Shown here in pieces: positions 18,037 to 34,029 of a DNA stretch of 64,000 nt. The notes below the pieces were generated by a model that saw nothing but the letters and a program-made list of their open reading frames with translations, made no database searches and had not been told where the DNA came from. Position 1 is the first letter of the stretch; each line of letters begins with the position of its first letter. This stretch comes from Oscillospiraceae bacterium (lineage in GTDB: Bacteria; Bacillota; Clostridia; Oscillospirales; Oscillospiraceae): contig JAFRIV010000045.1 in NCBI GenBank assembly GCA_017432615.1, positions 22,939 through 86,938 of the forward strand. Direction: 5' to 3'. Position numbers and translations under genes: made by a program.

Positions 18037-19545
18037 ATGCCGGATAAAACCTATATCGCAATCGATTTGAAAAGCTTCTATGCCTCCGTGGAGTGCCGGG
18101 AGCTGGGAAAAGATCCGCTCACGACCAATCTTGTGGTTGCGGATCAAAGCCGTACGGAAAAGACGATCTGCCTGGCGGTTTCCCCCTCCCTGAAAGCCCA
18201 CGGGATCCCCGGGCGGGCTCGCCTCTTTGAGGTCGTACAGCAGGTAAAACGGGTAAATGCCCGGCGGCGGGCAAAGGCACCGGAGCATCAGTTCAAGGGC
18301 AAGTCCTTTGATGCAATCGAACTGGAGAACGATCCGTCTCTTGAACTGGATTATATCGCGGCAACGCCGCGGATGTCATTCTATATAGACTACAGCACGC
18401 GGATCTATACCATTTACCTGAAATACGCGGCCCCGGAGGATATCCACGTTTATTCCATCGATGAGGTGTTCATCGACGCAACGGATTACCTGAAAACGAA
18501 CGGCATGACGGCCCGTGATTTCGCCAAGCTGATCATCCGGGACGTGCTGAAAACAACAGGCATCACGGCAACGGCGGGCATCGGCCCCAATCTCTACCTC
18601 TGCAAAGTCGCTATGGATATCTGGTCAAAACATACCCCGGCGGATCAGGACGGCGTGCGTATTGCCGAACTGGACGAGATGACGTACCGACAGTATCTGT
18701 GGGCACACAAGCCTATCACGGATTTCTGGCGCGTCGGGAAAGGAACCGCAAAGAAGCTGGCGGACAACGGCATGTACACGATGGGAGACGTTGCCCGATG
18801 CTCGGTCGGCGGGGCGAACGACTTAAAAAATGAGGCGCTCCTGTACAGACTGTTCGGCGTGAACGCGGAACTGCTGATCGACCATGCCTGGGGTTGGGAA
18901 CCGTGTGAGATCAGGCATATCAAAGCCTTCAAGCCGGAGAGCAACAGCCTCAGCATCGGCCAGGTGCTGCAGGAACCGTATCCCTTCGACAAAGCCCGCA
19001 TGATCGTGCGGGAGATGACAGACGGGCTGGTAATGGACCTGGTGGATAAGGGACTGATGACGGACCAGATCGTACTTACCATCGGTTATGATATTGAGAA
19101 CCTTACCCCGGAATACAAAGGGTCAGTGGAAACCGACCGGTACGGGAGGAAAGTGCCGAAAATGGCCCACGGTTCCGAAAATATCGGGGAAATGACCTCC
19201 TCCACAAAGAAGATCATGGATGCCGTCATACGCCTGTATGACCGCATTGCGGATAAGAAGCTGCTGATTAGGCGGATGTATGTGGCGGCAAATCATATCA
19301 CGGATGCCGCAGCCTTAAAGGCAAAACCGGCGTTTGAACAAATGGATCTGTTCGCAGAACTTGACGGGGAAAAAGAAAAAAGGGAAAAAGAAGAAGCCGA
19401 CCGTGTCAGGGAGGAGAGGCTGCAGCAGGCAATGCTGTCCATCAGGAAACGGTATGGGAAAAACGCCATCCTGCACGGCACCAGCTATGAGGAGGGCGCG
19501 ACCGGACGCGACCGGAACAGGCAGATCGGAGGGCACAAGGCATAA
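18037..19545 (+). CDS. Y-family DNA polymerase (UmuC/DinB-like)
   Basis: A 502-aa translesion polymerase. The palm begins YIAIDLKSFYASVECRELG with the first catalytic Asp, and DIHVYSIDEVFIDAT supplies the second acidic pair; the thumb follows near ITATAGIGPNLYLCKVAMDI, and the little finger ends around residue 420. The charged C-terminal tail ends in QMDLFAEL, a plausible beta-clamp-binding QxxLF motif, before a Glu/Lys-rich coil. The next ATG overlaps its stop (TAATG) and encodes a YolD-like protein, a pairing common on mobile elements of Bacillota. No convincing LexA box was found upstream (17738-18036). Confidence 0.9.
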   Translation: MPDKTYIAIDLKSFYASVECRELGKDPLTTNLVVADQSRTEKTICLAVSPSLKAHGIPGRARLFEVVQQVKRVNARRRAKAPEHQFKGKSFDAIELENDPSLELDYIAATPRMSFYIDYSTRIYTIYLKYAAPEDIHVYSIDEVFIDATDYLKTNGMTARDFAKLIIRDVLKTTGITATAGIGPNLYLCKVAMDIWSKHTPADQDGVRIAELDEMTYRQYLWAHKPITDFWRVGKGTAKKLADNGMYTMGDVARCSVGGANDLKNEALLYRLFGVNAELLIDHAWGWEPCEIRHIKAFKPESNSLSIGQVLQEPYPFDKARMIVREMTDGLVMDLVDKGLMTDQIVLTIGYDIENLTPEYKGSVETDRYGRKVPKMAHGSENIGEMTSSTKKIMDAVIRLYDRIADKKLLIRRMYVAANHITDAAALKAKPAFEQMDLFAELDGEKEKREKEEADRVREERLQQAMLSIRKRYGKNAILHGTSYEEGATGRDRNRQIGGHKA

Positions 19546-19949
19546 TGGAGATCTCCCACGAATACGATGATATTATCGGTCTGCCCCATCCTGTATCTGC
19601 AGACCGGCCGCATATGCCGATGATCGACAGGGCCGCCCAGTTCTCACCCTTTGCCGCCCTTACCGGTTATGACGCAGCCATTGCGGAGACCGCCCGCCTG
19701 ACGGAACAAAAAAGGGAACTGTCAGATGAGCAAAAAGGAATCATCAGCAAGCAGCTCTTCCGGCTGCAATCCCGCCTGAAAACAGACCCGGAAGTTGCCG
19801 TGACTTACTTTGTACCCGACAGCCGGAAGAGAGGCGGGACCTATCAGACTGTGACCGGGAAGGCAAAGAAAGTGGATGAATATCTCGGCGTCCTGGAAAT
19901 GAGCAATGGGGTTTCCATCCCGTTTGATGATATCATCATTTTGGAGTAA
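19545..19949 (+). CDS. YolD-like protein paired with the Y-family polymerase
   Basis: A 134-aa protein starting MEISHEYDDIIGLPHPVSAD, with MIDRAAQFSPFAALTGYDAA and a C-terminal beta-rich part ending DEYLGVLEMSNGVSIPFDDII, the arrangement of the YolD-like family. Such proteins are typically encoded next to UmuC-like polymerases and are thought to act as their accessory subunit in place of UmuD; the biochemistry is not settled. Translation is coupled to the polymerase by a 1-nt overlap. Confidence 0.75.
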   Translation: MEISHEYDDIIGLPHPVSADRPHMPMIDRAAQFSPFAALTGYDAAIAETARLTEQKRELSDEQKGIISKQLFRLQSRLKTDPEVAVTYFVPDSRKRGGTYQTVTGKAKKVDEYLGVLEMSNGVSIPFDDIIILE

Positions 19950-19998
19950 TCCTGATTCGGATGAAAGGTTTTATGGCCCGGCCGGACAGGATAAAGAA

Positions 19999-20943
19999 TT
20001 AACGCTTCTGTACGGTGAAATGATAGCCGCGGCAGTCATTTTTACCGGAATTGAGGCGGCGGATCAGCGTTGTTTTGGGGAGATCCAGCTGACGGGCGGC
20101 TTCCCGCATCGAAGGATAGCGAATGTGCGTCTCTTCACAATAAACGGGAGTAGAGACGGGGGCTTTGCAGCGTTTATAGATCTCCCGCTGCTGAGGGGTG
20201 CGGACGATGCCTTTGTTGGCGGCAAATGTTCGTGCTTTGGAAGAGGAAGACATCTTCCAGCCGTGTTCTACCGTGCCGCCGAGGGACTTGTTGTAACCGC
20301 GGGATGGGTCGGTGGTGCGATTGACTTCAATGAGCCAGGCTTCAAAGGCGCGGGCAGATTCTTCCAGGATATTTTCCACACAGCGTATTTTTGTGATATT
20401 TTCCCAACCGACGGAACCGATCGCCTGATAGAGCTCCGGATTGTCCCGATACCCGTAGCCGTTCTGCCAGCGTTCTTCAAGAGGGCGGCCGGTACTGCCG
20501 ACGTACATTTTACCGTCAGGAAAGATGAGCTGATAGACGGAATAATGGGAGCGGGAGGGGTAAGCTGCCGGCCGGATACGGTTATATCCGAATTCCGGCT
20601 TCCAGGATTCCAGAGAGAGGATCAGAGAACGCTCCAGATCGCGGGCATCTTCCAGGGAAAGGCCGGACTGGTGAATGGTACGGTCAAAACTGTACCAGCC
20701 GAAGCGACGGATGTCAGCATACAGGGAGCGATTATGCTGATACCGCTCTCCTGCACCCCAGCGCCTGGTGGGATTCCCTTTGCAGTAACCGACGTACCGC
20801 TTGCCGAGGGGAGAGGTAAGAATATAAACACTGTAGCAGAAATAAGCTCCGTATTCCTGCACGAACTTTTCGTACGCACCTTCGTAGAGAATGAAGGTGC
20901 TTTTCTGTGTGTCGGCCGGAACAGCGGGAAGGGGTTCAGCCAT
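19999..20943 (-). CDS. Tandem GIY-YIG nuclease-like protein with NUMOD1-type end
   Basis: A 314-aa protein with two consecutive GIY-YIG-like domains: YSVYILTSPLGKRYVGYCKG (about 39-58) and YSVYQLIFPDGKMYVGST (about 130-147), each followed by Arg- and Glu-containing helices (for example LERSLI). The C-terminal part, YPSMREAARQLDLPKTTLIR, resembles NUMOD1, a DNA-binding module of homing endonucleases. The preferred start at 20943 overlaps the ATPase stop upstream by 8 bp, so the two genes are co-translated. A free-standing homing endonuclease or an element-encoded nuclease is most likely. Whether both active sites work is not decidable by eye. Confidence 0.75.
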   Translation of the reverse strand: MAEPLPAVPADTQKSTFILYEGAYEKFVQEYGAYFCYSVYILTSPLGKRYVGYCKGNPTRRWGAGERYQHNRSLYADIRRFGWYSFDRTIHQSGLSLEDARDLERSLILSLESWKPEFGYNRIRPAAYPSRSHYSVYQLIFPDGKMYVGSTGRPLEERWQNGYGYRDNPELYQAIGSVGWENITKIRCVENILEESARAFEAWLIEVNRTTDPSRGYNKSLGGTVEHGWKMSSSSKARTFAANKGIVRTPQQREIYKRCKAPVSTPVYCEETHIRYPSMREAARQLDLPKTTLIRRLNSGKNDCRGYHFTVQKR

Positions 20944-22132
20944 TTTCCGGGACCTCTTGGGAGAAGCTGCCGGAGGATTCCGAGAGACCCGATGGCTGCA
21001 TCCTTTCAGCATCCGAGGAAGCGGGGACGTCCGGCAGATGAATAAACCACTGGACGGACGTGCCGGTGCCGTCGGGCTTCGGGACAGAACGGCGCTCCCG
21101 CAGGGCCTGCCCCCTGGCTACCAGTTCCGCTTTGGCAGTGTTGATGACCTTAGGAGAGAAATCTTCGGCGGAAAGAAGATCGGTGAGTTCCTGCACAGGA
21201 ATTTCTTTACGTTCCTGCAGAAGGGAGAGAATGGCATCGACACAGAGATCCTTCATGCTGCGCTGCCTGGCGGCAGAAGAAGCGAAGGGAGGATCGCAGG
21301 CAAAATCGGCAAAGCGGCGGTCAGACATGCCGGCAAAGCGAATGACGCCGCCGGCTTCCATTGTATAGAGCACGGTGGACTGGAGGGGAGCATAGGAGTT
21401 CTTTTCGTTGCTGAGGTAACGGATCCTGTGATCCGACATGATTTCGGTGTAGGAAGTGAAGATCACACTGCGGGCAATGTCGGCCAGATCTGCTGAGCCG
21501 GTGAGGCGCTGCCGCCAGTCATCCGTCCGTTTTTTGTTGGTGTGGCAGACAAGCAGGAAAGCGAGATTATACTGCATGCTGAGTTCCACAAGGTGATTCA
21601 GCGCCCGGCGGGTATGCTGGCGGGAGGTCATGGAGGCACCGGGAGGGAAAAACGCCTGGATGGGATCGAAAACGCAGACGGCAGGGCGGCGGGATTCAAT
21701 CATTTTTTCCAGATCGGGAGAGCAGAAATGGAGACCGGCGATATGTTCAATGTCGACCGTGCAGATCTCCGGCATATAGGCATCATAGCGATCCAATGTT
21801 TTTTTCAGGCGCTTGGCAGTGGAGTCCTCCTTGGAAAAGTAGAGGCAGGTGCGATTCGGCCCTTTCTCGTAGAGGAGGTTGTTTTTGAGATCCAGCGTGG
21901 CAACGACGCCCGGGCATTCGGAGCGGATATAAGCGTCATCGTCCAGCATGGTGGAGTAATTTGCACTGATGCGGGCGAGAAGATAGCACCAGATGCTGGT
22001 TTTGCCGACACCGCCGTCTCCGACGAGAAGGGTGATGCCGCCTTTGGGGATCCAGTGGGGGACGAGCCATTCCACTTCTTTTTCCTCCACCTGATCCACG
22101 GACTGCAGGAAGCGATTCAGATCAGTTTTCAT
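20936..22132 (-). CDS. RepA/DnaB-like AAA ATPase
   Basis: A 398-aa RecA-fold ATPase of the RepA (AAA_25) type. The Walker A motif GGITLLVGDGGVGKTSIWCY lies near residues 30-49, Walker B in RRPAVCVFDPIQAFFP and a sensor-like LAFLLVCHTNK. A C-terminal winged-helix-like domain (about 290-360) and a low-complexity Ser-rich tail follow. Related proteins are hexameric helicases of plasmids and phages. It sits directly downstream of the G-rich repeat at 22251 and overlaps a GIY-YIG gene, suggesting a mobile-element replication or regulation module. The start at 22132 follows AAGGAGCTG. Confidence 0.75.
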   Translation of the reverse strand: MKTDLNRFLQSVDQVEEKEVEWLVPHWIPKGGITLLVGDGGVGKTSIWCYLLARISANYSTMLDDDAYIRSECPGVVATLDLKNNLLYEKGPNRTCLYFSKEDSTAKRLKKTLDRYDAYMPEICTVDIEHIAGLHFCSPDLEKMIESRRPAVCVFDPIQAFFPPGASMTSRQHTRRALNHLVELSMQYNLAFLLVCHTNKKRTDDWRQRLTGSADLADIARSVIFTSYTEIMSDHRIRYLSNEKNSYAPLQSTVLYTMEAGGVIRFAGMSDRRFADFACDPPFASSAARQRSMKDLCVDAILSLLQERKEIPVQELTDLLSAEDFSPKVINTAKAELVARGQALRERRSVPKPDGTGTSVQWFIHLPDVPASSDAERMQPSGLSESSGSFSQEVPENG

Positions 22133-22179
22133 GAAAACAGCTCCTTTTCTTTTTTTTAGGCGAGCCAATTATACAAAAA

Positions 22180-22205
22180 GACAAGTCCTTAAAATGGGAC
22201 TTGTC
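22180..22205 (-). terminator. Terminator of the tungstate ABC operon
   Basis: GACAAGTCC (22180-22188) pairs with GGACTTGTC; on the minus strand it is followed by TTTTTG. It lies downstream of tupC. A related hairpin precedes the second copy of the flanking repeat at 36179-36203. Confidence 0.7.
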
Positions 22206-22250
22206 ATATTTTTGACCAAGTTCATATATAATTTACAAATGATTAGCTTT

Positions 22251-22314
22251 GCCAACTATCCCAACTATCCCAGGTTTCCCAACTATCCCTCTGTTTTCAG
22301 GATTTCGGTTACAA
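22251..22314. repeat. Flanking repeat, copy A (tandem CCAACTATCCC units)
   Basis: About 64 bp beginning GCCAACTATCCCAACTATCC, with a third unit after (A)GGTTTC and a tail CTGTTTTCAGGATTTC. It matches 36246-36309 with about 5 mismatches in the same orientation. On the minus strand it reads as four GGG tracts separated by 6-nt loops. It lies between tupC and the RepA-like ATPase. Confidence 0.85.
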
Positions 22315-22364
22315 AACGGGAACAAGACGTTTTGGCGATTTCCGCCATACTCTCTCCCTTTCCG

Positions 22365-23018
22365 TCAAATACCGTAGAACTCCAGAAAACGCTTTGTCTG
22401 TGCCTGCTGTGGAGAAGAGAGAACGAGGTCTGCATCGCCCTGTTCGACCAGCTTCCCGTTATGAAGAACGATGATCCGGCCGGCAATGCGCCGGGCCTGC
22501 TGAATGCTGTGGGTGATGAACAGAACGCTGCAGCCGGACTCTGTGCAGGTCTTTCGGATCAGTTCCTCGGCGGCAAGGGTGGATTCCATATCCATGGCCG
22601 CTGTAGGTTCGTCCAGGATCAGCAGTTCGTAGCGTTTCATCAATATGCGGCAGAGCGCCATGCGGGCTGTTTCACCGCCGGAGAGTTTTTTTGCATTCTG
22701 TCCGGCCAGCGTTTCAATACCGAGAGCTTTCATCAATTCCGAAGCACGCAAAGGATCCCTCCCGTTCTGAAGAATATTTTTTTCTGTGCTCATGCGAAAC
22801 GGAAAACTCTTCTGCGGATGATACCCTACAGAGATGTGATCGAGAATTGGCTTGTTCTCATCCGAAGTTTCAATCCCGGCGAGGATCCTGGCAAAGGTGG
22901 ATTTGCCGCTGCCATTCGGGCCGATGACTGCTGTGATCTCCCCTGCCGGAAGATCCAGCTCCGGCAGGGACAGCACAACGCGCTTCCGATAAGTTTTGGT
23001 AAGAGCTGTCGTTTTCAT
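22365..23018 (-). CDS. tupC: Tungstate/molybdate ABC transporter ATPase, TupC-like
   Basis: A 217-aa ABC ATPase. Walker A GPNGSGKSTFARIL (about 32-45), Q-loop near GYHPQKSFPF, signature KLSGGETARMALCRIL, Walker B LLILDEPTAAMD and switch His in FITHSIQQARRIAG. It powers oxyanion import through TupB. Its ATG overlaps the tupB stop by 4 bp (ATGA). The gene ends at FLEFYGI without the C-terminal regulatory TOBE domain seen in ModC; the separate Mop gene at 25272 could serve in molybdate/tungstate homeostasis instead. Tungstate over molybdate is inferred from TupA family and neighbours. Confidence 0.88.
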   Translation of the reverse strand: MKTTALTKTYRKRVVLSLPELDLPAGEITAVIGPNGSGKSTFARILAGIETSDENKPILDHISVGYHPQKSFPFRMSTEKNILQNGRDPLRASELMKALGIETLAGQNAKKLSGGETARMALCRILMKRYELLILDEPTAAMDMESTLAAEELIRKTCTESGCSVLFITHSIQQARRIAGRIIVLHNGKLVEQGDADLVLSSPQQAQTKRFLEFYGI

Positions 23019-23701
23019 CGGCTCAGCCTCCCCTGCATCACGCTGAGGATGATGTTCACAAGCATCGAGAGACTCAGCAGAATCAGCCCCAGAGCGATAC
23101 CCAGCGTAAAGCTGCCCCGATTGGTATACATCATGATGGCTGTGGTCATAACGTTTGTTTTCCAGGCAATGGCCCCGCCGACCATGGCTACGGCGCCGAC
23201 CTCGGCAATCGCACGGGCGAAGGAGAGAAGATAAGCGGAAAAGATCGAGTACAGACATTCGTTTATGAGCAGCCGGTATTCTTTAAGCCGACTGAAACCC
23301 AGGCCCCTGGCGGTTTCACGCAATGCGGGCGCGGTATCCGCCACAAAGGTTTCCATGACACCGATGATGATCGGTGTAATCAACACCACCTGAGCCAGGA
23401 TCATCAGCTTTACCGTAAAGAGCCAGTGGAGATGCCGAAAAGGGCCGACTCCGGAAAAGAGCATATAAAACAAAAGACCGCAAACCACCGGCGGCATGCC
23501 GATCAGTGTACGGTTGAGGACCAAAAGAATTCTCCTCCCCGGAAAGCGTTCCGCTCCGTACAGGATCCCGACAGGGACGCCGAGAAGAAGCGCGAAAATC
23601 GAGCTGGTCAGGCAGACCCTGGCTGTGGTGGAGAGAATATTCAGAAGTTCCGGATCGGCTGAGAGAATCAGCTCAATCGCTTTTTTGACAGATGAGCCCA
23701 T
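23015..23701 (-). CDS. tupB: Tungstate ABC transporter permease, TupB-like
   Basis: A 228-aa permease with about five or six transmembrane helices. It carries the TupB/WtpB-like sequences ARVCLTSSIFALLLGVPVGI, NRTLIGMPPVVCGLLFYMLF and the EAA-type cytoplasmic loop ALRETARGLGFSRLKEYRLL that docks the ATPase. Conserved FARAIAEVGAVAMVGG follows. It lies between tupC and tupA, separated from tupA by a palindromic hairpin. Confidence 0.9.
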   Translation of the reverse strand: MGSSVKKAIELILSADPELLNILSTTARVCLTSSIFALLLGVPVGILYGAERFPGRRILLVLNRTLIGMPPVVCGLLFYMLFSGVGPFRHLHWLFTVKLMILAQVVLITPIIIGVMETFVADTAPALRETARGLGFSRLKEYRLLINECLYSIFSAYLLSFARAIAEVGAVAMVGGAIAWKTNVMTTAIMMYTNRGSFTLGIALGLILLSLSMLVNIILSVMQGRLSR

Positions 23702-23723
23702 ATAAAACAGTCCTTTTAAAAAT

Positions 23724-23747
23724 AGCCGCGGAGCATGCTCCGCGGCT
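23724..23747 (-). terminator. Intercistronic hairpin between tupA and tupB
   Basis: A perfect 24-bp palindrome (AGCCGCGGAGCA and its complement) followed on the minus strand by ATTTTTAAAAGG. It probably terminates part of the transcripts, so binding protein exceeds permease. Confidence 0.75.
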
Positions 23748-23775
23748 CATATTTTACTTCATAAATCGCCCGGAA

Positions 23776-24738
23776 TCAACCCATAACGCCGTCGTTTGCT
23801 ACGAAAGTCAGGAAGGTTGCTTTGTCGGTGAGAATGTAAGCACCCATCTCCTCGGCCATGACGAGGCATGCACCCATACCTGTATTGGCGGAGATATACC
23901 AGTCAGTGTAGTCCTTGAAGCTCTCGGCTTCTGCCGTGATGCCCATTTCTTCCGGCCAGAGGCTAAGTTCCTTGGTGTGGGTACCGGAGCCGTCGCCGCG
24001 GGAGATAAAAGTGAATTTGCCGTCAGCAATGGCCTTGAAAGCGGCTTTGACGTCAGCAGCGTCTTTGACGCCCGCAGGGTCGGCAGAAGGACCGCAGAGT
24101 ACAAAATAGTTGTACATCCAGTTCAGACGCTCAGCGTCCATACCCTCGAGCACATAGGAGAAGCCGTCAGCGATGAAAGCTTCCTCCTGTTTTTTGGAGT
24201 GGACCAGGATCAGATCGGCATTGCCCATTTTGGCGTTGGCGATGGACTTGCCGGTACCGGCGGAATAAACCTCAACTTCATAGCCGTACTTTTCCTCAAA
24301 GACGGGAAGAAGGAATCCCAGAAGGCCGGAGTCGTTGACAGAGGTAGTGGTGGACAGACGGATCTGCTTTGTCTCTTCCGTAGCCATGGGGATCTCGGCA
24401 GTGGAGACAGGGCGGCCGGCCTTGAGATAGAACAGGTACTCGCCGTACTCTTCAAAGCCGTAGTTGGCAGCCAGTTCCTGACCCTCTTCAGAGAGCAGCC
24501 AGTTGATCAGTGCTGCGGCACCGACTGTATTGAGTTCCACGTCCGTGACCGCATTACCGTCAGCGTTGACAAATGGAGCTTCAGGATTCACGGCCAGCAG
24601 GCTGTAGTTATTGATCATGGCATCATCTGCTTCCTTGAGGATACAGGTATCGACGACCAGACCGTCCGCCGAGGCGGAAACAGCTGTCAGGGAAAGAACC
24701 ATGATCAGGACGATCAGCAGGGATACAAACTTTTTCAT
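23776..24738 (-). CDS. tupA: Tungstate-binding protein TupA-like, apparently circularly permuted
   Basis: A 320-aa exported binding protein with signal peptide MKKFVSLLIVLIMVLSLTAV ending at SASA. From residue 126 the family N-terminus appears (IRLSTTTSVNDSGLLGFLLP), followed by GTGKSIANAKMGNADLILVH, FVLCGPSADPAGV, FISRGDGSGTH and GMGACLVMAEEMGAYILTDK, and the protein stops at 320. The piece that normally follows that point is instead at residues 26-108: CILKEADDAMINNYSLLAVN ... LINWLLSEEGQELAANYGFEEYG. The order of the two blocks is therefore swapped relative to the usual family. All oxyanion-binding loops appear present. The ATG at 24738 follows GGAGGA. Confidence 0.85.
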   Translation of the reverse strand: MKKFVSLLIVLIMVLSLTAVSASADGLVVDTCILKEADDAMINNYSLLAVNPEAPFVNADGNAVTDVELNTVGAAALINWLLSEEGQELAANYGFEEYGEYLFYLKAGRPVSTAEIPMATEETKQIRLSTTTSVNDSGLLGFLLPVFEEKYGYEVEVYSAGTGKSIANAKMGNADLILVHSKKQEEAFIADGFSYVLEGMDAERLNWMYNYFVLCGPSADPAGVKDAADVKAAFKAIADGKFTFISRGDGSGTHTKELSLWPEEMGITAEAESFKDYTDWYISANTGMGACLVMAEEMGAYILTDKATFLTFVANDGVMG

Positions 24739-24857
24739 ATACATGTCCTCCATAAAAAAATTCCCCCTTCCCGGGCAGAGCGCACGAAAAACGTGCCGCT
24801 TCCGCACCGAAAAAGAGGCTCGTCCACCGCTTTCCGAAAGCGTATTCGACTATGATT

Positions 24858-24886
24858 ATTTTAGCATTGTTCTTTTGCTTATTCAA
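24858..24886 (-). promoter_or_regulatory. tupA promoter
   Basis: On the minus strand TTGAAT (24886-24881), 17-bp spacer, TAAAAT (24863-24858). It lies 120 bp upstream of tupA and about 18 bp from a block of phased GCAYGAAA repeats (24905-24944). Confidence 0.7.
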
Positions 24887-24904
24887 TCGTATGTGCAAGC
24901 GGAT

Positions 24905-24944
24905 TGTGCCAAACAGCACGAAAATGAATGAAACAGCATGAAAA
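24905..24944. promoter_or_regulatory. 10-bp-phased GCAYGAAA repeats at the tup promoter
   Basis: Four consecutive 10-mers, GTGCCAAACA, GCACGAAAAT, GAATGAAACA and GCATGAAAAA, share a GCAYGAAA-like core every helical turn. A related array is at 32001-32040. The palindrome GGGCAAcTTGCCC follows at 24952-24964. Probably the operator of the island regulator; this is inference. Confidence 0.55.
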
Positions 24945-25007
24945 ACTTGCTGGGCAACTTGCCCTAAACGGTATAGGATAAAGAGAACAACACGAGGGGT
25001 GAAGACT

Positions 25008-25262
25008 ATGAGAATCTGCGAGATTTGGGGTATCGCTCCGGAGAGGATCCGGGAATATCTGCGTGAAGAAGAAGCGCTGGCCATGACAGAGCCTGACTGC
25101 TATTCTGACGGGCATATCACAATCAGCCTAAACGTTCTGCCTCCGCGCATTCTGGGGTCATTTTCCTTCCCACAGACGAAGGTCGAGTTTGAAGGCAGTG
25201 ACAAAGAGACGGAAAGACTTCACCGGCGCTTCGTTCTGCGCTTTATCTCTGCAGGGGGATAG
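25008..25262 (+). CDS. Small hypothetical protein in the tungsten island
   Basis: An 84-aa frame on the strand opposite its neighbours, starting MRICEIWGIAPERIREYLRE and ending RLHRRFVLRFISAGG. An AGGGG site lies 8 nt before the ATG. No membrane segment, signal or known motif was recognised. It lies between tupA and mop, and the spacer to the mop stop is 9 bp. It could be a small regulator or chaperone of the island, but nothing in the sequence says so. Confidence 0.5.
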   Translation: MRICEIWGIAPERIREYLREEEALAMTEPDCYSDGHITISLNVLPPRILGSFSFPQTKVEFEGSDKETERLHRRFVLRFISAGG

Positions 25263-25271
25263 GTTTTTTGA

Positions 25272-25484
25272 TCACTCGTCCACGCCGACCATGACATTGC
25301 TGGCTTTGATGACGGCATAAGCTGTACCACCGACCTGAAGGCCGAGCTCCCGGATCGAGGACATGGTGATGACGGAACTGATGATGTTCCCCCCGCCGAT
25401 ATCCAGCTTTACGATACCGTTGACCGCACCTTCCTGAATCTCTGTGATGATGCCTTTGAACTGGTTCCTTGCGCTAAGTTTCAT
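25272..25484 (-). CDS. mop: Mop/TOBE molybdate- or tungstate-binding protein (molbindin)
   Basis: A 70-aa single Mop domain: MKLSARNQFKGIITEIQEGAVNGIVKLDIGG, then ISSVITMSSIRELGLQVGGTAYAVIKASNVMVGV. Such proteins assemble as hexamers that store or sense molybdate or tungstate. The SARN start and the ITMSSIRELGL loop are typical oxyanion-binding parts. An AAGGAGATAT site precedes the ATG. It lies between the binding-protein gene and the flavoprotein operon. Confidence 0.9.
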   Translation of the reverse strand: MKLSARNQFKGIITEIQEGAVNGIVKLDIGGGNIISSVITMSSIRELGLQVGGTAYAVIKASNVMVGVDE

Positions 25485-25528
25485 AATGATATCTCCTTTT
25501 TATTCATTATACGGATAAATCCGTATGT

Positions 25529-26422
25529 TTACAAAAGTGAAGCACCGACTTCACGCCCGATATGCTGCGCCTGGGAAACGGCGGAATCCACCATGTCGTA
25601 CACCCGGGAGCAGTTACCCGCAAGGCTGAGCCAGGGGGAAGACTCCAGACCCTGTACAAGCGTTCTCTCCGAGATCAGACCGAGTGCGGTGACAAGCGTG
25701 TCGCAGGCAATAAATTCCTGTTCACCGCTGTCAAGATGAACGGCAGTCACACCGGAAATGCGGCCCTGCCCGTGAATCTTCCCGACGGTCATGCGGCAGC
25801 GCAGCGGGATCTGGTATGCCTCTATACAGCGGCGGTAGTTTCGCGCCATGCCGCCGAAGGTATCGGCCTGCTCCAAAACGGCGATCACATGCTTTCCTTC
25901 CAGCACAAAGCGGCGGGCTATGATCATACCGAGATCACCGCTGCCGAGGATCAGCACCTCGCCGCCCAAATCCTGATGCCGTAGATTGATCATTTCCTGT
26001 GCCTGGCCGGCCGTGAAGATCCCGGCAGGGCGCGTCCCGGCGACGGGCAGCGCACCGATGCCTTTTTCCCGGCAGCCGGAGGCAAGGATCAGATGCTCAA
26101 AATGCAACAGGCTTACACAGCCGCGGCATGACAACAGAGCGGTTTTGCCGCGAGAAACGGAGAGGACCTCTGTACCGAGCGACAGACGCACACCGGTAGA
26201 TACAAGCCCTGCAAGGAGCCTTTCGGCATATTCCGGGCCGCAGAGCTCCTCGCCGAAAGCCGTAAGGCCAAAGCCCGCGTGGATGCACCGGGGCAGTACA
26301 CCGCCGGGAATTGACGACCGGTCTGCAATGAGAATATCCCGGCATCCGGCGTCCCAGGCAGACATCGCCGCGGAAAGCCCTGCGGCGCCCGCGCCTACGA
26401 TCAGCAGCTTAACTTGCTCCAT
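25529..26422 (-). CDS. FAD/NAD-dependent oxidoreductase (pyridine-nucleotide disulfide oxidoreductase type)
   Basis: A 297-aa flavoprotein with FAD dinucleotide fold LLIVGAGAAGLSAAMSAWDA at the N-terminus, a central second GxGxxG (LILGSGDLGMIIARRF) for NAD(P), and TLVTALGLISERTL near the end. It lacks a redox-active CxxC. It resembles the small flavoprotein that accompanies GlpA-like dehydrogenases in Clostridia. It begins at 26422, overlapping the previous gene by 14 bp, so the two are likely subunits of one complex. Given the operon it could pass electrons between NAD(P)H and the tungsten enzyme; that is inference. Confidence 0.78.
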   Translation of the reverse strand: MEQVKLLIVGAGAAGLSAAMSAWDAGCRDILIADRSSIPGGVLPRCIHAGFGLTAFGEELCGPEYAERLLAGLVSTGVRLSLGTEVLSVSRGKTALLSCRGCVSLLHFEHLILASGCREKGIGALPVAGTRPAGIFTAGQAQEMINLRHQDLGGEVLILGSGDLGMIIARRFVLEGKHVIAVLEQADTFGGMARNYRRCIEAYQIPLRCRMTVGKIHGQGRISGVTAVHLDSGEQEFIACDTLVTALGLISERTLVQGLESSPWLSLAGNCSRVYDMVDSAVSQAQHIGREVGASLL

Positions 26423-27851
26423 GATATAAGATCTCCGTACCCTTGCCGTCCTTTGTGACGGCACTTTCCGGAATACCCAGCTCCTGACTGAGGATCGCTA
26501 TGATCTTCTGCTGACAGCGTGCTCCCTGGCATCGCCCCATACCTGTTCCGACGCGGCGTTTTACGGCATCCACTGTGCAGGCACCGCGCCGGATCGCCTC
26601 CAGCACTTCTGCCTTTGTCACCTCTTCACAGGGACAAAGAATCTCACCGTAATCCGCATTCTTCTGTACCAGTTCCTTGCGCTGCGCAAATTCCAGACCG
26701 CGTACGCCGGGGATGCCGTTCCGCCGGGGGGCAAATGCCGTGTTTTCATCTGCATCCAGTTCCGCGGCGATTTTTTCCGCCAGATAAAGACCAAGTTCGT
26801 CCGCGCAGGTCAGTCCCGGCGTTTTGATACCGATCAGGCTCCAGAAGGCATGAGCGGGGTGCTCAATCACAAAACTGCCGATGCTGCTGCCGTCCGGACG
26901 CTGCGGATTGGGCCGCGCCGCAGCAAAGGAGCGGATCACACTGTCCACGCGAAGATCCGGCAGAAGCTCGCGGAGCTGACGCCGGACAAAAGACAGACCC
27001 TCTGTATCGGTGGCATAATCGGGCCTGCCGTCCCGTTCCGAAGGGCCGACCAGCAGGCTGCCCTCTACCGTAGGGACAACGGAAATCCCTTTGTCGTCCT
27101 CCTCCGGTTCATATTGCAGGATATAACGCGGCATGGGCCTGCTGGTTTTGTCCAGGATCAGATAGTCTCCGGCGTTGATCGAGAGGGATACCGGTGAAGG
27201 AAACAGCAGTTTTTGAACCCGGTCAGATGCCAGACCCGCACAGTTGACTACAGCCCGGCACAGGAAATTACCCCGGTCGGTTTTTACACAGTAATCACCG
27301 CAGACGGCAGAGATGTCAAGGACTGTTGTTTTTAAAAAAGCATCGGCGCTGTTCTGACAGGCGTTTTCAAAAGCCGCAATGCCCAGCGCCCATGGGTTCA
27401 ACGTACCCGCTGTGGGAGCGTAGAGGGCCGAGCGTACGCCGTGCGCAAGCGCCGGTTCCATCTGCTCTGCCTCCGGCCCGCTCAAAAGGCGCAACCCGGG
27501 GACACCGTTTTGAATCCCGCTGTGCAATTTCTGCTTGAGTATTGCATCAGCTTTTTCACCGTAGCTGACCATCAGCGAGCCGCAGCGGGAAAAAGGTACG
27601 TCCAGCTCGCGGCAGAGCTGATCCATACGCGCATTGGCCTGTACGGTCATTTTCGCCTTCAGCGTGCCCGGCTTATGATCATAGCCAGAATAGATGATGG
27701 CGGTATTGGCACGGGAAATGCCGGTACAGACATCCTCTCTTTCCTCGATGAGCGCAACCGAGACTTTCCAGCGCCTGAGATTGCGTGCAGCAAAGCAACC
27801 CAGCAGACCGGCACCGATTACGACGATATCGTATCGCCGCTCAGAAAACAT
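26409..27851 (-). CDS. GlpA-like FAD-dependent dehydrogenase with BFD [2Fe-2S] domain
   Basis: A 480-aa protein. The N-terminal FAD fold YDIVVIGAGLLGCFAARNLR is followed by a DAO-type barrel with SGYDHKPGTLKAKM and NCAGLASDRV. The C-terminal ~60 residues form a bacterioferritin-associated-ferredoxin-like domain with Cys in CPCEEVTKAE and MGRCQGARCQQKI, predicting an iron-sulfur cluster. This is the architecture of anaerobic glycerol-3-phosphate dehydrogenase GlpA and amine/hydroxyacid dehydrogenases. Here it is cotranscribed with molybdopterin genes (11-bp overlap with MoeA-PBP) rather than glycerol genes, and the DUF1667 partner often seen is absent. Substrate unknown. Confidence 0.78.
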   Translation of the reverse strand: MFSERRYDIVVIGAGLLGCFAARNLRRWKVSVALIEEREDVCTGISRANTAIIYSGYDHKPGTLKAKMTVQANARMDQLCRELDVPFSRCGSLMVSYGEKADAILKQKLHSGIQNGVPGLRLLSGPEAEQMEPALAHGVRSALYAPTAGTLNPWALGIAAFENACQNSADAFLKTTVLDISAVCGDYCVKTDRGNFLCRAVVNCAGLASDRVQKLLFPSPVSLSINAGDYLILDKTSRPMPRYILQYEPEEDDKGISVVPTVEGSLLVGPSERDGRPDYATDTEGLSFVRRQLRELLPDLRVDSVIRSFAAARPNPQRPDGSSIGSFVIEHPAHAFWSLIGIKTPGLTCADELGLYLAEKIAAELDADENTAFAPRRNGIPGVRGLEFAQRKELVQKNADYGEILCPCEEVTKAEVLEAIRRGACTVDAVKRRVGTGMGRCQGARCQQKIIAILSQELGIPESAVTKDGKGTEILYHGAS

Positions 27852-29751
27852 CGATGATCTCACCCGGACGATCCAGCGTGTAGCCGCCCATAGCTGTGAT
27901 CCGGGCGCGGAAGGCGTCCCCTTTGAGTGTGGCGATCAGCTGCTGCATCATCGGTGTACTCCAGGTATTTCCGGGTATCAGCAGATCATATTCCTCCACA
28001 CAGATAGGGATAAAGTCCAGACCGTACAGCTTGGCGGTGGAATAGATGCCCATACCGGCATCCGCCGAGTCACCCGCAATCTGGACTGCTACGGAATTAT
28101 GGGTCATTTCCTCCCGTTCATAGCCGTATATATCGGCAGGATCGATGCCATTTTTTCCGCACAGATAGTCCATCAGGATCCGCGTACCGGACCCTTTTTG
28201 CCGATTCACATAGCGTACGCCGTTTCCGGCAATATCCGCAAAATTCCGGATCCCCAGCGGATTGCCTTTCTGCAGCATCAGACCCTGCTGACGTCCCACA
28301 CAGCGTACCAGATACATGCCGCCCCGAGGGAAATACTTTTTGATATAGCTGCGGTTATACTCCCCGGTTTCGGTATCCAGCAGATGGATCCCCGCTGCGT
28401 GAGCCTCACCCCGGCGGATAGCCATGATACCGCCCATAGAGCCCACGTGGGTCGAAGAAAGATACATGCCGTGGTTTTCACTGTGGATCAGGTCAGCCAG
28501 TTCGTCCATCAGCGGATCGTGGCTGCCGATAACCACCAGGGTATTTTTCAGCTTTTTCTTCGGATTCAGGATGCGAACGCGTACCTCTTCTCCTGCCTGA
28601 AAACCTTCCATTCCCTGGGGGACTTCGATCATGCCGTCAGCCTTCATGAAGGAGGACACAACGCCGCTGCCTCTCGGCAGAGGCGAGGCGATGAGCCGAT
28701 CTCCGACATAGCCCATGCGTACCCGCACGAATTCCTGATATTTGAGCCCTGAAACCACAGGGCGGGTAAGCGTGGCCTTCGTTCGGCTGCCCTTGTCACT
28801 ATCTCTCTCAAACCAGCTGTCGATCAGCGGGCGCAGCAGTTCCTCAATCACGATGATGCCTGACACCGGATAGCCCGGAACGCCAAGAATCGGCGTTGAG
28901 CCGGAGAGCCCCAGAATGGCAGGCTTGCCAGGTTTAATGGCAATGCCGTGATAGAGCACTTCGCCCAACTTCTCGATTGCGGATTTAGAGTAGTCGTCCC
29001 GCCCGGCGGACGAGCCGGCGTTGAGGAGAACAAGGTCGCACTCGGCCAGGGCCTTCTCCAGCATAGCAGAGATTGCATCGAACCTGTCCGGCACGATGGG
29101 GTAGGTCCTGGCTTCTGCGCCCCAATCGGCCAGCATGGCGGAGAAGATGGAGGAATTGAATTCCAAAATATCCCCGGGCTTAGGATCTGCACAGGGCGGG
29201 ATGATCTCATCTCCTGTGGGGATGATGCCCACCACAGGACGCCGGATGACCTCCAGTTCCAGCACGCCGCCGGCTATCATGGCACCGATGGCAGAAGGGC
29301 TGACCTCCATAAAGCCGGGCAGGATCATCTCCCCGGCGCAGATATCCTCGCCGATTTGGCGGATATGCTGCCAGGGGGCGGCTGCGGCGTGAATGGTGAT
29401 GCTGCCGTCGTTATTTTTTACGATATCTTCTACCATGATGACCGCGTCGCAGCCCTCCGGGATTGCATCACCGGTATCCACGACCACAAACTGCTCGGAC
29501 CGGAGCGTTACGGGCGTGGTTTCGGTGGCACCGAAGCTGTCGGCTGCACGGATCGCCACGCCGTCCATGGCACTGGCGGCATAATGGGGTGCATTGATGT
29601 TGGCGTAGACCGCTTTCGCAGTCATGCGGCCATAGGCGCGCTGTACCGGAATGATCTCCGTTTTTCCGGCAAATCCGTTATAACGCAGCTTGGCCAGATA
29701 GTCTTTCTTTGCCTGTTCCAGAGGAACATTCGTTAAATATTCAAAACTCAT
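27841..29751 (-). CDS. MoeA fused to a periplasmic-binding-like domain
   Basis: A 636-aa protein. Residues 1-400 are MoeA, which inserts molybdate or tungstate into adenylylated molybdopterin: HYAASAMDGVAIRA, VDTGDAIPEGCDAVIMVE, GIIPTGDEIIPP, LNAGSSAGRDDY and GKPAILGLSGSTPILGVPGYP. Residues about 430-636 are a type-2 periplasmic-binding fold without a signal peptide, with GIRNFADIAGNGVRYVNRQKGSGTR and YEREEMTHNSVAVQIAGD, homologous to the ligand domain of the regulator at 30979. It may hold the oxyanion for delivery to the MoeA part. The start at 29751 follows TTGAGGT. Confidence 0.9.
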   Translation of the reverse strand: MSFEYLTNVPLEQAKKDYLAKLRYNGFAGKTEIIPVQRAYGRMTAKAVYANINAPHYAASAMDGVAIRAADSFGATETTPVTLRSEQFVVVDTGDAIPEGCDAVIMVEDIVKNNDGSITIHAAAAPWQHIRQIGEDICAGEMILPGFMEVSPSAIGAMIAGGVLELEVIRRPVVGIIPTGDEIIPPCADPKPGDILEFNSSIFSAMLADWGAEARTYPIVPDRFDAISAMLEKALAECDLVLLNAGSSAGRDDYSKSAIEKLGEVLYHGIAIKPGKPAILGLSGSTPILGVPGYPVSGIIVIEELLRPLIDSWFERDSDKGSRTKATLTRPVVSGLKYQEFVRVRMGYVGDRLIASPLPRGSGVVSSFMKADGMIEVPQGMEGFQAGEEVRVRILNPKKKLKNTLVVIGSHDPLMDELADLIHSENHGMYLSSTHVGSMGGIMAIRRGEAHAAGIHLLDTETGEYNRSYIKKYFPRGGMYLVRCVGRQQGLMLQKGNPLGIRNFADIAGNGVRYVNRQKGSGTRILMDYLCGKNGIDPADIYGYEREEMTHNSVAVQIAGDSADAGMGIYSTAKLYGLDFIPICVEEYDLLIPGNTWSTPMMQQLIATLKGDAFRARITAMGGYTLDRPGEIIDVF

Positions 29752-29761
29752 AATCAATACC

Positions 29762-30976
29762 TCAATCTCTGAAAACCTGTACTTTTGCACCTTTGGGAAG
29801 ACCCTCGCTGTCCCGCGGGATGATGAAATATCCGTCAGCACCTGCAAGCTGGGTAATCAGCCCTGACTTGGAGCGGATCGGAACAACGACAAGTTCACCG
29901 TCCTGTTTTTCCAACCGGCAGGCATTGACCTGTGCCCGACCGTGGTTGGCGCTGATGCTCTCACTCAACACGGCGGTGAGACTTGGCTTTTCGGCTTCCT
30001 GCCCGCAGAGCCTGTCCAACAGCGGCAGGACAAACAGCTTTGCGATAAAATAGGCTGCCGCCGGATGGCCCGGGAGACCGATGAGGGGTTTATTCCCAAC
30101 CCTGCCCAGAATCGTCGGTTTGCCCGGCTTGATGGCGATGCCGTGGAGCAGCAGTTCGCCCATTTCCTCAATAATCCGGCAGGCGGCATCCTTTACGCCA
30201 ACGCTGCTGCCGCCGGAGATGAGCACTGCATCGCACTCCGCAGCAGCGCGCTGCACGGTCTGCCTGAGCCTGGATTCGTCGTCAACGATAATACCGTAAC
30301 AGATCGCCTCCGCGCCCCATTCCTGAAGCAGCGCTGTAAGCATTGGCATATTCACATCCCGTACCTGTCCCGGTGCCGGCTTTTGATCCGGAGGGACCAG
30401 CTCGTCTCCCGTGGAGATGACACCCACCCGGAGAGTACGAAGGACAGGAACCGCAATCTCACCTGCGGCGGAGAGTGCGCCGATATCTGACGCAGTCAGC
30501 TTTCTTCCGGCTTTGAGGATGACTTTCCCGGGATAGACATCATCCCCGCGGAAAATCAGATTCATGCCCGGTGCACCGGGCTTCAAAATGCCCACAGTTC
30601 CGTCGCCATAATTCTCCGTGTATTCGATCATCACCGCACAGTCTGCGCCTTTCGGAATTGCTCCGCCTGTGGGCACATAGGCACAGCTTTCTTTTCCCAG
30701 TTCGAAGCCTGCGCTCTGCCCCATCAGCACCTCTCCGGAAATCTTGAGAATCGCAGGAATTGCGTCGGAACAACCGAAAGTATCGACCGCCCGGCAGGCA
30801 TACCCATCCACTGTGGAGCGGTCAAAGTCCGGCACAAATTCTGTTGCCGTGATATCCCGGACAAGGATACGGCCAAGCGCTTTGCTGACGGGGACCGTCT
30901 CCTCACAACCGCTGAGCGGCGCAAAAGCCTGCCGGATCAGTGTCAGGACCTCCTCAGGGGTCTTTACTTCAAGCAT
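29762..30976 (-). CDS. moeA: Molybdopterin molybdotransferase MoeA
   Basis: A 404-aa stand-alone MoeA: DFDRSTVDGYACRAVDTFG, YVPTGGAIPKGADCAVMIE, RVGVISTGDELVPP, ISGGSSVGVKDAACR, GIAIKPGKPTILGR, GLPGHPAAAY and the C-terminal beta barrel. It catalyses metal insertion into adenylyl-molybdopterin. The ATG lies 2 nt after the regulator stop with GGAGGTG overlapping it, so expression is coupled. Having two MoeA copies is usual in organisms that use both molybdenum and tungsten, one perhaps specialised for each. Confidence 0.93.
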   Translation of the reverse strand: MLEVKTPEEVLTLIRQAFAPLSGCEETVPVSKALGRILVRDITATEFVPDFDRSTVDGYACRAVDTFGCSDAIPAILKISGEVLMGQSAGFELGKESCAYVPTGGAIPKGADCAVMIEYTENYGDGTVGILKPGAPGMNLIFRGDDVYPGKVILKAGRKLTASDIGALSAAGEIAVPVLRTLRVGVISTGDELVPPDQKPAPGQVRDVNMPMLTALLQEWGAEAICYGIIVDDESRLRQTVQRAAAECDAVLISGGSSVGVKDAACRIIEEMGELLLHGIAIKPGKPTILGRVGNKPLIGLPGHPAAAYFIAKLFVLPLLDRLCGQEAEKPSLTAVLSESISANHGRAQVNACRLEKQDGELVVVPIRSKSGLITQLAGADGYFIIPRDSEGLPKGAKVQVFRD

Positions 30977-30978
30977 TT

Positions 30979-31920
30979 CTACACCTCCGCAATGATCTTT
31001 CCCATATCCCGGTAGTCATTTCCTGTGAAGTGGCGGATCTCTTTTTTGAAAGCTGCTGAGCGCAGGATCTCCAGAATCGTCTCGGCTGCCGGGTTTTCCA
31101 TGGAATCTCTGCGCATCACCAGATCATAGCGCTCTTCCAGCAAAGGTATAAAGTCCAGACCGTCAATCTGCCTGGAGATGCGTTCCGTACCGATAGCAAG
31201 ATCCGCTTCGCCGTCGGCTATGGCGGCAGCCATCGTCAGATGAGATTTCATCTCCTTCTCATAGCCCTTGATCTGCCGCGGATCCAGATTCATGCGCATA
31301 AGCTGCCCATCCAGCAGGATACGCGCACTGGAACCGGCGCGGCGGTTGAGAATGGAGATATCCCGACGGGCCAGATCGCGCCAGCCGAGAATCTCCTTCG
31401 GGTTGCCGGCTGCCACGTAAAAGCCCTGCTTCCGATAGGAAACGTTGATCAAAACCGCCTTCACCCCGGGTATAAGCCGCCGCACATACGGGACATTGAA
31501 GCTTTTTTCATCCACCGCGTACAGGTGGCAGGCTGCTGCGTCTACCTTCCTTTCATACAGGGCAAGCAGCCCTTCAAAGCTGCTTAGATAGCAACGGTCA
31601 GTAGTCAAGCCGTTCTGGTACAGGAAATTACTCAAAATATCCAGCACTACATCCTGACCGGATATCACAAAGGGGCGCTCTCCCTTGCCGGCGGGATGGA
31701 GCAGATCACTGCTGACCTCCAGACGACGGACCGGTTGGACACTCTGCTCATGCCTCGAGCGTGCAATGTAGGCGTCCACATCATCCTGGGTAAAACGGAC
31801 CTTGCGGCCGACCTTGTAGGAATTGATCTCACCCCGGCGTATCAGCTCGTAAATCGTGGATTTACTCACATGGAGGATATCCGCTACCTCCTGCGTTGAA
31901 AGTGATTTGTTTTGCGCCAT
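30979..31920 (-). CDS. Excisionase-fold transcription regulator with periplasmic-binding-like sensor domain
   Basis: A 313-aa one-component regulator. Residues 1-55 form a MerR/excisionase winged helix (LSTQEVADILHVSKSTIYEL, then VGRKVRFTQDDVDAYI). Residues about 85-300 form a type-2 periplasmic-binding domain with DISILNRRAGSSARILLD and YEKEMKSHLTMAAAIADGEA, closely similar to the C-terminal domain of the MoeA fusion. It probably senses tungstate, molybdate or the loaded cofactor and controls the divergent operons. Its promoter (31957-31985) and phased CACGAAA repeats (32001-32040) lie immediately upstream. It is the first gene of a five-gene minus-strand operon. Confidence 0.88.
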   Translation of the reverse strand: MAQNKSLSTQEVADILHVSKSTIYELIRRGEINSYKVGRKVRFTQDDVDAYIARSRHEQSVQPVRRLEVSSDLLHPAGKGERPFVISGQDVVLDILSNFLYQNGLTTDRCYLSSFEGLLALYERKVDAAACHLYAVDEKSFNVPYVRRLIPGVKAVLINVSYRKQGFYVAAGNPKEILGWRDLARRDISILNRRAGSSARILLDGQLMRMNLDPRQIKGYEKEMKSHLTMAAAIADGEADLAIGTERISRQIDGLDFIPLLEERYDLVMRRDSMENPAAETILEILRSAAFKKEIRHFTGNDYRDMGKIIAEV

Positions 31921-31956
31921 ACGGCAGCCCTCCGAAGACCTTTAGTAATGTTATTT

Positions 31957-31985: not shown

Positions 31986-32000
31986 GTACACTACCAGCAG

Positions 32001-32211: not shown

Positions 32212-34029
32212 ATGAGCAACGCATACTATGAAAAAATAGCCCGCATCAACCTGACTACCGGCGAGATCAAGGCGGAGCCCCTGGACCTGGAAGTGGCAAA
32301 AAAATTCATCGGCGGCCGTGGTCTCGGTACCAAGATCCTCTATGATGAGGGTGTGGCGGCGGTTGACCCCCTGTCCCCGGACAACAAGCTCGTCTACATC
32401 ACCGGCCCCATGACAGGCTCCAATTCTCCATCTTCCGGCCGTTACATGGTCGTAACAAAGTCCCCGTTGACCGGCATGATCGCCTGCGCCAACTCCGGAG
32501 GCATTTGGGGTGCCAAACTCAAATTCGCCGGCTGGGACGCACTGATTGTCGAAGGACAGGCCCCCGACTGGTGCTACCTGAATATCGAAGACGATAAGAT
32601 CGAGATCCTGGACGCCAGAGAGTATCTCGGGGTTTTGAGCGAAGAGCTGGACGACAAGCTGAAGGAAAAACACGGCGCTGAATGTTCTGTGCTGAACATC
32701 GGCCCCGCCGGTGAGAAGCAGGTATTACTGGCTGCCGTTATGAATGACAAGGACCGCGCAGCCGGCCGTTCCGGTACCGGCGCCGTCATGGGCAGCAAGA
32801 AACTCAAGGCTATTGTTGTAAAGGCCACCCGCAAGCAGCTGGACGTTATTGCCGATGTGGATGCTCTGAAGGAAGCCAACAAGGCCTGCCTTAAGATTAT
32901 GACAGACAATCCCCTCACCGGCGCAGGCCTGCGTGCCCTCGGCACTGCTTCTCTGGTCAACGTCATCAACGGCATCGGCGCCCTGCCCACCAAGAACTGG
33001 CAGGAAAGCTACTGTCCCACCGCCGATCAGTTCTCCGGCGAGACTCTGGCAGAGAAGTATCTGGTCAAGCCCGGTGCCTGCTTCCACTGCCCCATCGCCT
33101 GCGGCCGCATCATCAAGCATGACGACAAGGTCGTCGGCGGCCCCGAGTACGAACCGCTGTGGGCCTATGGCAGCGACTGCGGCAACGATGACCTGTACAC
33201 CATCGACGAAGCCAACCGCCTTTGCAACGAGTACGGCCTGGACGCCATCGGCGTGCCCTGCACCATCGCCGCTGCGATGGAGCTGTACCAGCGCGGCTTC
33301 ATCAAGGAAGAGGACTGCGCCGGCGTACCGCTGGAGTGGGGCAGCAAAGAGGCCCTGATCGAGTGGACCAAGCGCATGGGCGATCCCAAGACTGAGCTTG
33401 ACTGGCTGATGTCCTCCGGTTCTGCCCGCCTCTGTGAGCACTACGGCCACCCCGAGTTCTCCATGAGTGTCAAGAAGCAGGAAATCCCCGCCTACGACGC
33501 CCGCGCCATCCAGGGCATCGGCATCAACTACGCTACCGCCAACTGCGGCGCCGCCCACGTGCGCGGCTACATGATTGCGCCTGAGGTCCTCGGTATTCCC
33601 GCACAGCTGGATCGTACCGTCACCGACGAGAAGGCCGGCTGGGCCAAGACCTTCCAGGATCTGACCGCCGCCATCGACTCCATGGGCACCTGCCTGTTCA
33701 CCTCTTTCGCTCTGGGCGCTCCCGAGTACGCGAGTCTGCTCAACGCCGCCACCGGAACGAACTACACGCCTGAGGAACTGCTGGAGGTCGGTGACCGGAT
33801 CTTCAACATCGAGCGTATGTTCAACAAGGCTGCCGGCATGAAGCCCGAGGATGACCGCCTGCCTAAGCGTCTGCTTACCGAGCCCATCTCCAACGGCCCA
33901 TCCAAGGGAATGGTCAGCAAGCTCGATATCACGCTTCCGCAGTATTATGCAGCCCGCGGCTGGGTTGATGCCTTCCCGACCGATGAGACTCTGAAAAAGC
34001 TGGGTCTTGACGAGTGCATCGGAAAGTAA
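32212..34029 (+). CDS. Tungsten-dependent aldehyde ferredoxin oxidoreductase family protein
   Basis: A 605-aa AOR-family enzyme, cytosolic, with a tungsto-bispterin and one [4Fe-4S] cluster; the family oxidises aldehydes to acids (or reduces acids) using ferredoxin. The N-terminal domain has FIGGRGLGTKILYDE, GPMTGSNSPSSGRYMVVTKSP and GGIWGAKLKFAGWDAL. Cluster ligands CFHCPIACGR (CxxCxxxC, about residues 288-297) pair with a late Cys in DSMGTCLFTSF. Pterin-binding segments such as GPEYEPLWAYGSDCGNDD are present. Length is typical. It is the first gene of the plus-strand operon with its own W-maturation genes. The aldehyde substrate is unknown. Confidence 0.92.
   Translation: MSNAYYEKIARINLTTGEIKAEPLDLEVAKKFIGGRGLGTKILYDEGVAAVDPLSPDNKLVYITGPMTGSNSPSSGRYMVVTKSPLTGMIACANSGGIWGAKLKFAGWDALIVEGQAPDWCYLNIEDDKIEILDAREYLGVLSEELDDKLKEKHGAECSVLNIGPAGEKQVLLAAVMNDKDRAAGRSGTGAVMGSKKLKAIVVKATRKQLDVIADVDALKEANKACLKIMTDNPLTGAGLRALGTASLVNVINGIGALPTKNWQESYCPTADQFSGETLAEKYLVKPGACFHCPIACGRIIKHDDKVVGGPEYEPLWAYGSDCGNDDLYTIDEANRLCNEYGLDAIGVPCTIAAAMELYQRGFIKEEDCAGVPLEWGSKEALIEWTKRMGDPKTELDWLMSSGSARLCEHYGHPEFSMSVKKQEIPAYDARAIQGIGINYATANCGAAHVRGYMIAPEVLGIPAQLDRTVTDEKAGWAKTFQDLTAAIDSMGTCLFTSFALGAPEYASLLNAATGTNYTPEELLEVGDRIFNIERMFNKAAGMKPEDDRLPKRLLTEPISNGPSKGMVSKLDITLPQYYAARGWVDAFPTDETLKKLGLDECIGK

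Follow-up and report, generated by a model that had tools for sequence, protein, structure and literature searches.

An open reading frame at positions 23776-24738 of the window, the 64,000-nucleotide contig stretch analysed here, encodes, by its sequence, a circularly permuted protein of the TupA type. The product is very probably the binding protein of a TupABC tungstate importer, and its gene appears to have been circularly permuted, probably once, in the ancestor of a Clostridia lineage. As in other circularly permuted substrate-binding proteins, the old termini are joined and new ones have been opened elsewhere. Both halves are homologous to TupA, and their direct matches to PDB chains are weak but consistent. 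The gene, its parts and the two adjoining transporter genes are as follows.

23776..24738, minus strand: permuted tupA, 320 amino acids plus stop (reading of the frame, TupA profile and structure matches, rotation test)
24667..24738, minus strand: signal peptide, residues 1-24 (..SLTAVSASA, then DG), no lipobox cysteine (sequence reading and lipobox pattern; cleavage site predicted)
24430..24663, minus strand: residues 26-103, the block that closes ordinary TupA (alignment, half-profiles)
24364..24429, minus strand: residues 104-125, linker of 22 residues between the old C- and N-terminus (linker-length comparison)
23779..24363, minus strand: residues 126-320, ordinary N-terminal and middle part of TupA (TupA profile and structure matches, transferred numbering)
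23015..23701, minus strand: tupB, permease (Pfam domain PF00528; conserved neighbour)
22365..23018, minus strand: tupC, ABC ATPase (Pfam domain PF00005; conserved neighbour)

Two TupA blocks in reversed order

The frame runs from an ATG at 24738 to a stop codon at 23776-23778 and encodes 320 residues. The match to Pfam PBP_like_2 was confined to residues 122-312, and the best stretch of the NCBIfam TupA model NF041772 covered residues 122-315 (profile 13-192) with 140 bits, below the curated cut-off of 400 bits, which none of 60 relatives exceeded either. The same model matched all 42 members of an alignment of permuted proteins. This main part (residues 121/124-315) could be aligned to the beginning and middle of four PDB TupA chains (3lr1 5-178, 3muq 5-178, 5my5 23-203 and 3kn3 5-182), in agreement with the proposal of the first-pass annotation that the ordinary N-terminal block opens only at residue 126. 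Stretches within residues 26-93 aligned just after the main part in the same four chains, though weakly, with 3.3-8.6 bits for the single sequence and 14.3, 5.4 and 7.8 bits for a profile of the 42 rows (among the three alignments listed). On 3muq, this 42-row profile placed its positions 142-333 on chain positions 4-180 and its positions 45-112 on 179-235, so that the two blocks meet and the core is complete. Because the N-terminal block by itself matches the structures so weakly, it is half-profiles and relatives that carry the argument for a permutation.

For the half-profiles, the N-terminal block (referred to as the tail) and the main part of the 42 permuted proteins were profiled separately. 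At E<0.01, with the search size fixed at 62, the tail profile recovered 56 of the 57 C-termini of ordinary proteins; among the controls it hit 2 of the 1009 shuffled sequences that were reported (from 1140 generated) and 0 of the 55 reversed ones that were reported (from 57). In the loci that were fetched, 172 open reading frames contained a main part; the tail came first in 111 and last in 49, and in 12 the tail profile had no match at a threshold of E 0.01 (overlapping loci were counted more than once); four of these 12 are fragments of split permuted genes and eight are of the ordinary type. The gap from main part to tail was 1-7 residues in 45 of the 49 ordinary-order frames and 11-30 residues in the remaining four, whose tail matches start late.

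The lobe A - lobe B - lobe A order of TupA blocks is reversed in the window protein. Along its chain, a profile of 49 ordinary TupAs matched it first with profile positions 180-240 and only afterwards with 2-173, which is the reversed two-hit pattern that had been suggested as a check, and restoring the order of the halves led to a single match over profile 2-240. Swapping the halves raised the score in 78/78 permuted proteins (median +10.6 bits, range 1.0-16.2), a gain that is modest because HMMER already sums both pieces. When all rotations of the window protein were scored, the best starts were residues 105-125, within the linker (264.2 bits versus 259.2 unrotated), while a control rotation (15%) scored about the same as the natural order (259.1 versus 258.4 median).

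Residues 26-108 might be read instead as an unrelated N-terminal domain in front of a C-terminally truncated TupA, as the restricted PBP_like_2 match and the low direct scores of this block would allow. We consider this very improbable and set it aside, since the tail profile recognizes ordinary C-termini with shuffled and reversed controls near zero, its matches fall where the main part stops, and the swapped halves give one full-length match. The block is indeed conserved among relatives, yet homologous to the C-terminal block of ordinary TupA, as had been suggested from the window sequence.

Cut site, lobes and ligand residues

The linker was 22 residues long in all 105 permuted frames (of 111) in which it could be measured. 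In a near ordinary relative (L118) the corresponding junction reads TDKATYL-SMKDKL-DLEIIV, the window protein ends with ..DKATFLTFVANDGVMG, and an example of a permuted N-terminal start is LSLEILKEEDEAMIN (L101), which places the cut in that loop. The gene would thus have been opened within the loop that connects ..TDKATFL to the strand xLxILxExD, with the old termini joined via the 22 residues.

For TupA of D. alaskensis, the consulted part of the structural report assigns residues 2-76 and 201-251 to lobe A and 91-200 to lobe B, and it names the TTTS motif, His59, Arg118, Thr124 and Asp170 as the metal site (PMC5517513). With lobe limits and ligand numbering carried over from this source via the PDB alignment, we infer a cut between D. 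alaskensis residues of about 180 and 187. This position lies inside lobe B, so that the chain order would be B-A-B in place of A-B-A; by alignment, residues 26-44 correspond to the end of lobe B and residues 45-103 to the second part of lobe A. Of the metal-site residues, T130-T132, S133, H180, R247 and T253 are kept in 42/42 permuted proteins and D305 in 41/42, with a gap in one truncated row. The lobes presumably fold as in ordinary TupA and would close on WO4(2-) (and MoO4(2-)) through TTTS, His180, Arg247, Thr253 and Asp305. The window protein is best interpreted as a functional tungstate-binding protein, predicted to bind tungstate more tightly than molybdate.

Distribution of the permuted gene

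A scan of a species-genome collection, whose matching records are titled as metagenome-assembled or uncultured genomes, led to 77 loci, 76 of them with the permuted order and the remaining one (L103) beginning at a contig end. Some of the 76 are cut by contig ends, and two (L098, L082) are split by frameshifts. Hosts named in record titles are sheep, goat, yak, deer and water buffalo, and identity to the window protein was 58-89% in the 42-row alignment. In the genus, 47 of 102 genomes matched; all those listed had the permuted order, one of them frameshift-split (G017), and an ordinary-order tupA was found in none of the 47. Such relatives with the same order are what the first-pass annotation had advised to look for.

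These numbers also bear on the possibility that a normal tupA was cut and rejoined by the assembler or misplaced by binning. The window genome is a draft of 50 contigs with 87% completeness and the scan records are metagenome-assembled or uncultured, which leaves room for such an error; but the same order recurs in many separate assemblies from several hosts and at 58-89% identity, with a linker of identical length. An artefact thus has a negligible probability and was set aside, as the order is common to 76/77 scan loci and 47/102 genus genomes.

Sampling was extended to class and phylum. In the class sample, for which few candidates were scored per genome, 47 of 391 genomes matched, and the four permuted cases came from four different families, none with a second match. 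In the 43 matching genomes without permutation, the tail followed directly downstream of the main part in 18 and lay upstream in 0, and the main part was found alone in 25. In the phylum sample, 187 of 398 genomes matched, and among the matches listed, where permuted copies would rank at the top, only the window genome was permuted. No ordinary match was found beside a permuted copy in the 60 relatives, the class sample or the genus at the thresholds used. NF041772 at E 1e-10 and the permuted query picked the same 18 of 60 relatives. In a plasmid collection, 116 records matched, none with a single place covering 80% of the query. The named records of the lineage belong to Clostridia (Oscillospiraceae, Lachnospiraceae and unclassified). 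The carriers are gut bacteria, many from ruminants, with the rearranged gene lying beside the genes of an uptake pump throughout the lineage. As the best Pfam and NCBIfam stretches cover only about two thirds of the protein and the family remains below the TupA cut-off, tungsten uptake may be under-called in the annotation of such bacteria.

At L023/L026/L098 and at L082, the permuted tupA is distributed over two reading frames, reflecting either a decayed gene or a sequencing error. A further permuted tupA (L094) is located on a short contig of a metagenome-assembled genome (MAG) labelled Coriobacteriaceae, which may be due to transfer or to a binning error.

Phylogeny and route of origin

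A midpoint-rooted tree was calculated from 49 ordinary proteins and 48 permuted ones, the latter remaining from 79 distinct sequences after thinning at 92% identity. The 12 frames without tail match (including L023, L026, L098 and L082), X rows and sequences with fewer than 150 columns of the main part were left out. The permuted proteins formed one side of a branch with support of 100/100. Its stem is long (0.6), and the tree places it amid ordinary TupAs that belong to the same class and phylum; the seven closest of these grouped weakly (91/41). Trees of the main part alone and of the tail alone gave the same split (SH-aLRT 99 and 100, respectively). A single permuted clade amid ordinary TupAs suggests one origin, and a single origin of the permutation would be the simplest reading.

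The likeliest route comprises a tandem duplication and fusion of tupA, an internal deletion sparing the signal peptide and a truncation of the second tupA copy. A tandem duplication with loss of the outer ends had already been proposed from the window sequence; it fits the anatomy of the protein, but a convincing intermediate was absent from the fetched frames, among which only L158, with two weak tail fragments, came up in a search for two tails or two main parts. DNA repeats between 22500 and 27000 of the window were limited to short matches, and a trace of a tandem duplication was absent there. Across 57 ordinary TupAs, the similarity of tail and of main part to the permuted clade was uncorrelated in rank (rho -0.02), so that a common origin of the two halves in a single gene copy gains no independent support. 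Together with the missing intermediate, these disagreeing ranks would suit an assembly from parts of two different tupA genes. We regard this as the less probable origin, though one to be taken into account, since with about 80 amino acids the tail is short and its similarity ranks are noisy, and since both halves yield the same single permuted clade.

Comparison with known permuted binding proteins

Permuted binding proteins as such are already known; ProX and OpuAC, for example, are permuted relative to each other, a pair on which the consulted part of PMC9732360 contains nothing. A report of a circularly permuted TupA was not found in the open PMC literature, among the matches listed. The nearest precedent is TpMglB-2 (Tp0684), described in the parts of its report used here as a circularly permuted glucose-binding lipoprotein, for which the class 'Type Ic' was proposed (PMC4990184). 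Like the permuted TupA it is an ABC substrate-binding protein that became circularly permuted in nature, and relatives occur in gut Gram-positives; it differs in being a Type I sugar binder in which the permutation adds a fourth lobe crossing, and the same parts of the report claim no relation to TupA (PMC4990184). Circular permutation among two-lobed binding proteins, molybdate-binding ones included, was also recorded with CPSARST between glycine-betaine-binding and molybdate-binding proteins, which the consulted excerpt treats as distantly related families (<24% identity) whose relationship was detected by comparing structures (PMC2395249). In contrast, the permutation of TupA lies within a single orthologous family and its operon, for which unpermuted relatives are available. 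Ordinary TupA (D. alaskensis 5my5; 3lr1, 3muq, 3kn3) shares both blocks, the ligand residues, the operon partners and the genomic setting, and the permuted form differs by its swapped blocks, new termini that by alignment lie in lobe B, and the 22-residue linker. A natural permutation is thereby available with its operon, its unpermuted relatives and a well-supported tree branch, and pairs of A-B-A and B-A-B homologues could be used to measure how ligand affinity, lobe closure and delivery to the permease depend on the order of the chain and on where it is anchored.

Signal peptide and anchoring

Of the 79 permuted proteins whose upstream end is closed, 64 have a lipobox according to a custom pattern, a count that missed the borderline L050 and L100 and the masked row L067, and many of the lipobox proteins carry a long Ala/Pro/Glu-rich tether. 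The window protein and its two closest scan relatives (L027, L028) have a signal peptide and no lipobox cysteine, whereas close neighbours in the tree, for example L030, have this cysteine. From the lipobox cysteine to the first domain, the median tether length was 33.5 in permuted (n=64) and 19 in ordinary proteins (n=35); as the sequences are not independent and the lipobox pattern is a custom one, a longer tether in permuted proteins is only a hint.

In ordinary TupA (D. alaskensis numbering) only about eight residues of the mature chain precede the TTTS loop, which belongs to lobe A. The permuted chain would instead begin in lobe B, and B would replace A as the discontinuous lobe. The N-terminal tether, with a lipid in most relatives and apparently none in the window protein, would then be attached to lobe B. 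One might speculate that the permutation was kept because the N-terminal anchor moves away from the ligand loop, an idea we consider rather doubtful. Anchoring was also raised as a possible reason for permutation by the authors of TpMglB-2, in the part of their report used here (PMC4990184). If true for TupA, it would be a second anchor-driven rewiring after TpMglB-2, in a different binding-protein class, and might define a 'Type IIc' lineage in which the lobes close, or the ligand is handed over, in an altered way.

Five other exported-looking proteins of the window genome (L002-L006) also have signal peptides with ASASA- or AGA-like ends and without a classic lipobox; they were chosen by resemblance to the signal peptide of the permuted TupA and are a biased sample. 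At L122 (ORF 1177-2316, plus strand), a TupA of ordinary order carries a bacterial SH3 domain (PF08239) at its N-terminus, which suggests attachment to the cell wall, and L123, L125 and L126 resemble it by eye.

Operon and neighbourhood

The window has the tupB and tupC partners expected for a TupA operon. Among permuted loci with enough DNA (overlapping loci included), tupB was next in 99/101 and tupC was found in 64/66. With the window TupB as query, tupB was found in 31 of 46 ordinary loci with enough DNA, indicating that the sensitivity of this query drops with distance. Divergent second copies of permuted TupA were observed at L095 and L100 (about 4.0-5.0 kb) with no tupB or tupC in ~4 kb downstream; the MAGs of both carry another permuted copy with tupB and tupC (L079, L085), and the divergent copies would be orphan binding proteins.

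A domain scan of the neighbourhood led to the following genes.

25272..25484, minus strand: protein with a single TOBE domain
27841..29847, minus strand: MoeA with a C-terminal PBP_like domain
29762..30976, minus strand: second MoeA
30979..31920, minus strand: helix-turn-helix and PBP_like protein, possible Mo/W regulator (predicted role)
32212..34029, plus strand: aldehyde ferredoxin oxidoreductase (AOR) family protein

The TOBE protein, both MoeA genes and the AOR-family gene belong to a W/Mo-cofactor cluster of the window. TOBE domains bind molybdate or tungstate, and aldehyde ferredoxin oxidoreductases are a family of tungstoenzymes. The AOR-family protein is likely to consume the metal, which would be handed by the binding protein to TupB/TupC and supply the tungsten cofactor of this nearby enzyme.

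Even with the permuted architecture being right, the ligand could be molybdate or another oxyanion rather than tungstate, as TupA itself binds molybdate, more weakly according to the portion of the report cited (PMC5517513), and as the family scores under the TupA cut-off. We judge this unlikely, since the eight positions named there for the metal site of D. alaskensis TupA are all kept, the best PDB matches are solved TupA or TupA-like chains, the best NCBIfam match is NF041772 (in 42/42 members), and an AOR-family gene lies within the same cluster.

An Rfam scan of 19000-36000 with E up to 0.5 gave no match. The MoeA-PBP_like protein (27841-29847) and the nearby helix-turn-helix-PBP_like protein (30979-31920) may be Mo/W sensors. 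Just downstream of the tup operon, an AAA_25 ATPase (20936-22168, minus strand) adjoins a protein with a GIY-YIG domain (19999-21012, minus strand), in which a second GIY-YIG-like stretch can be seen by eye.
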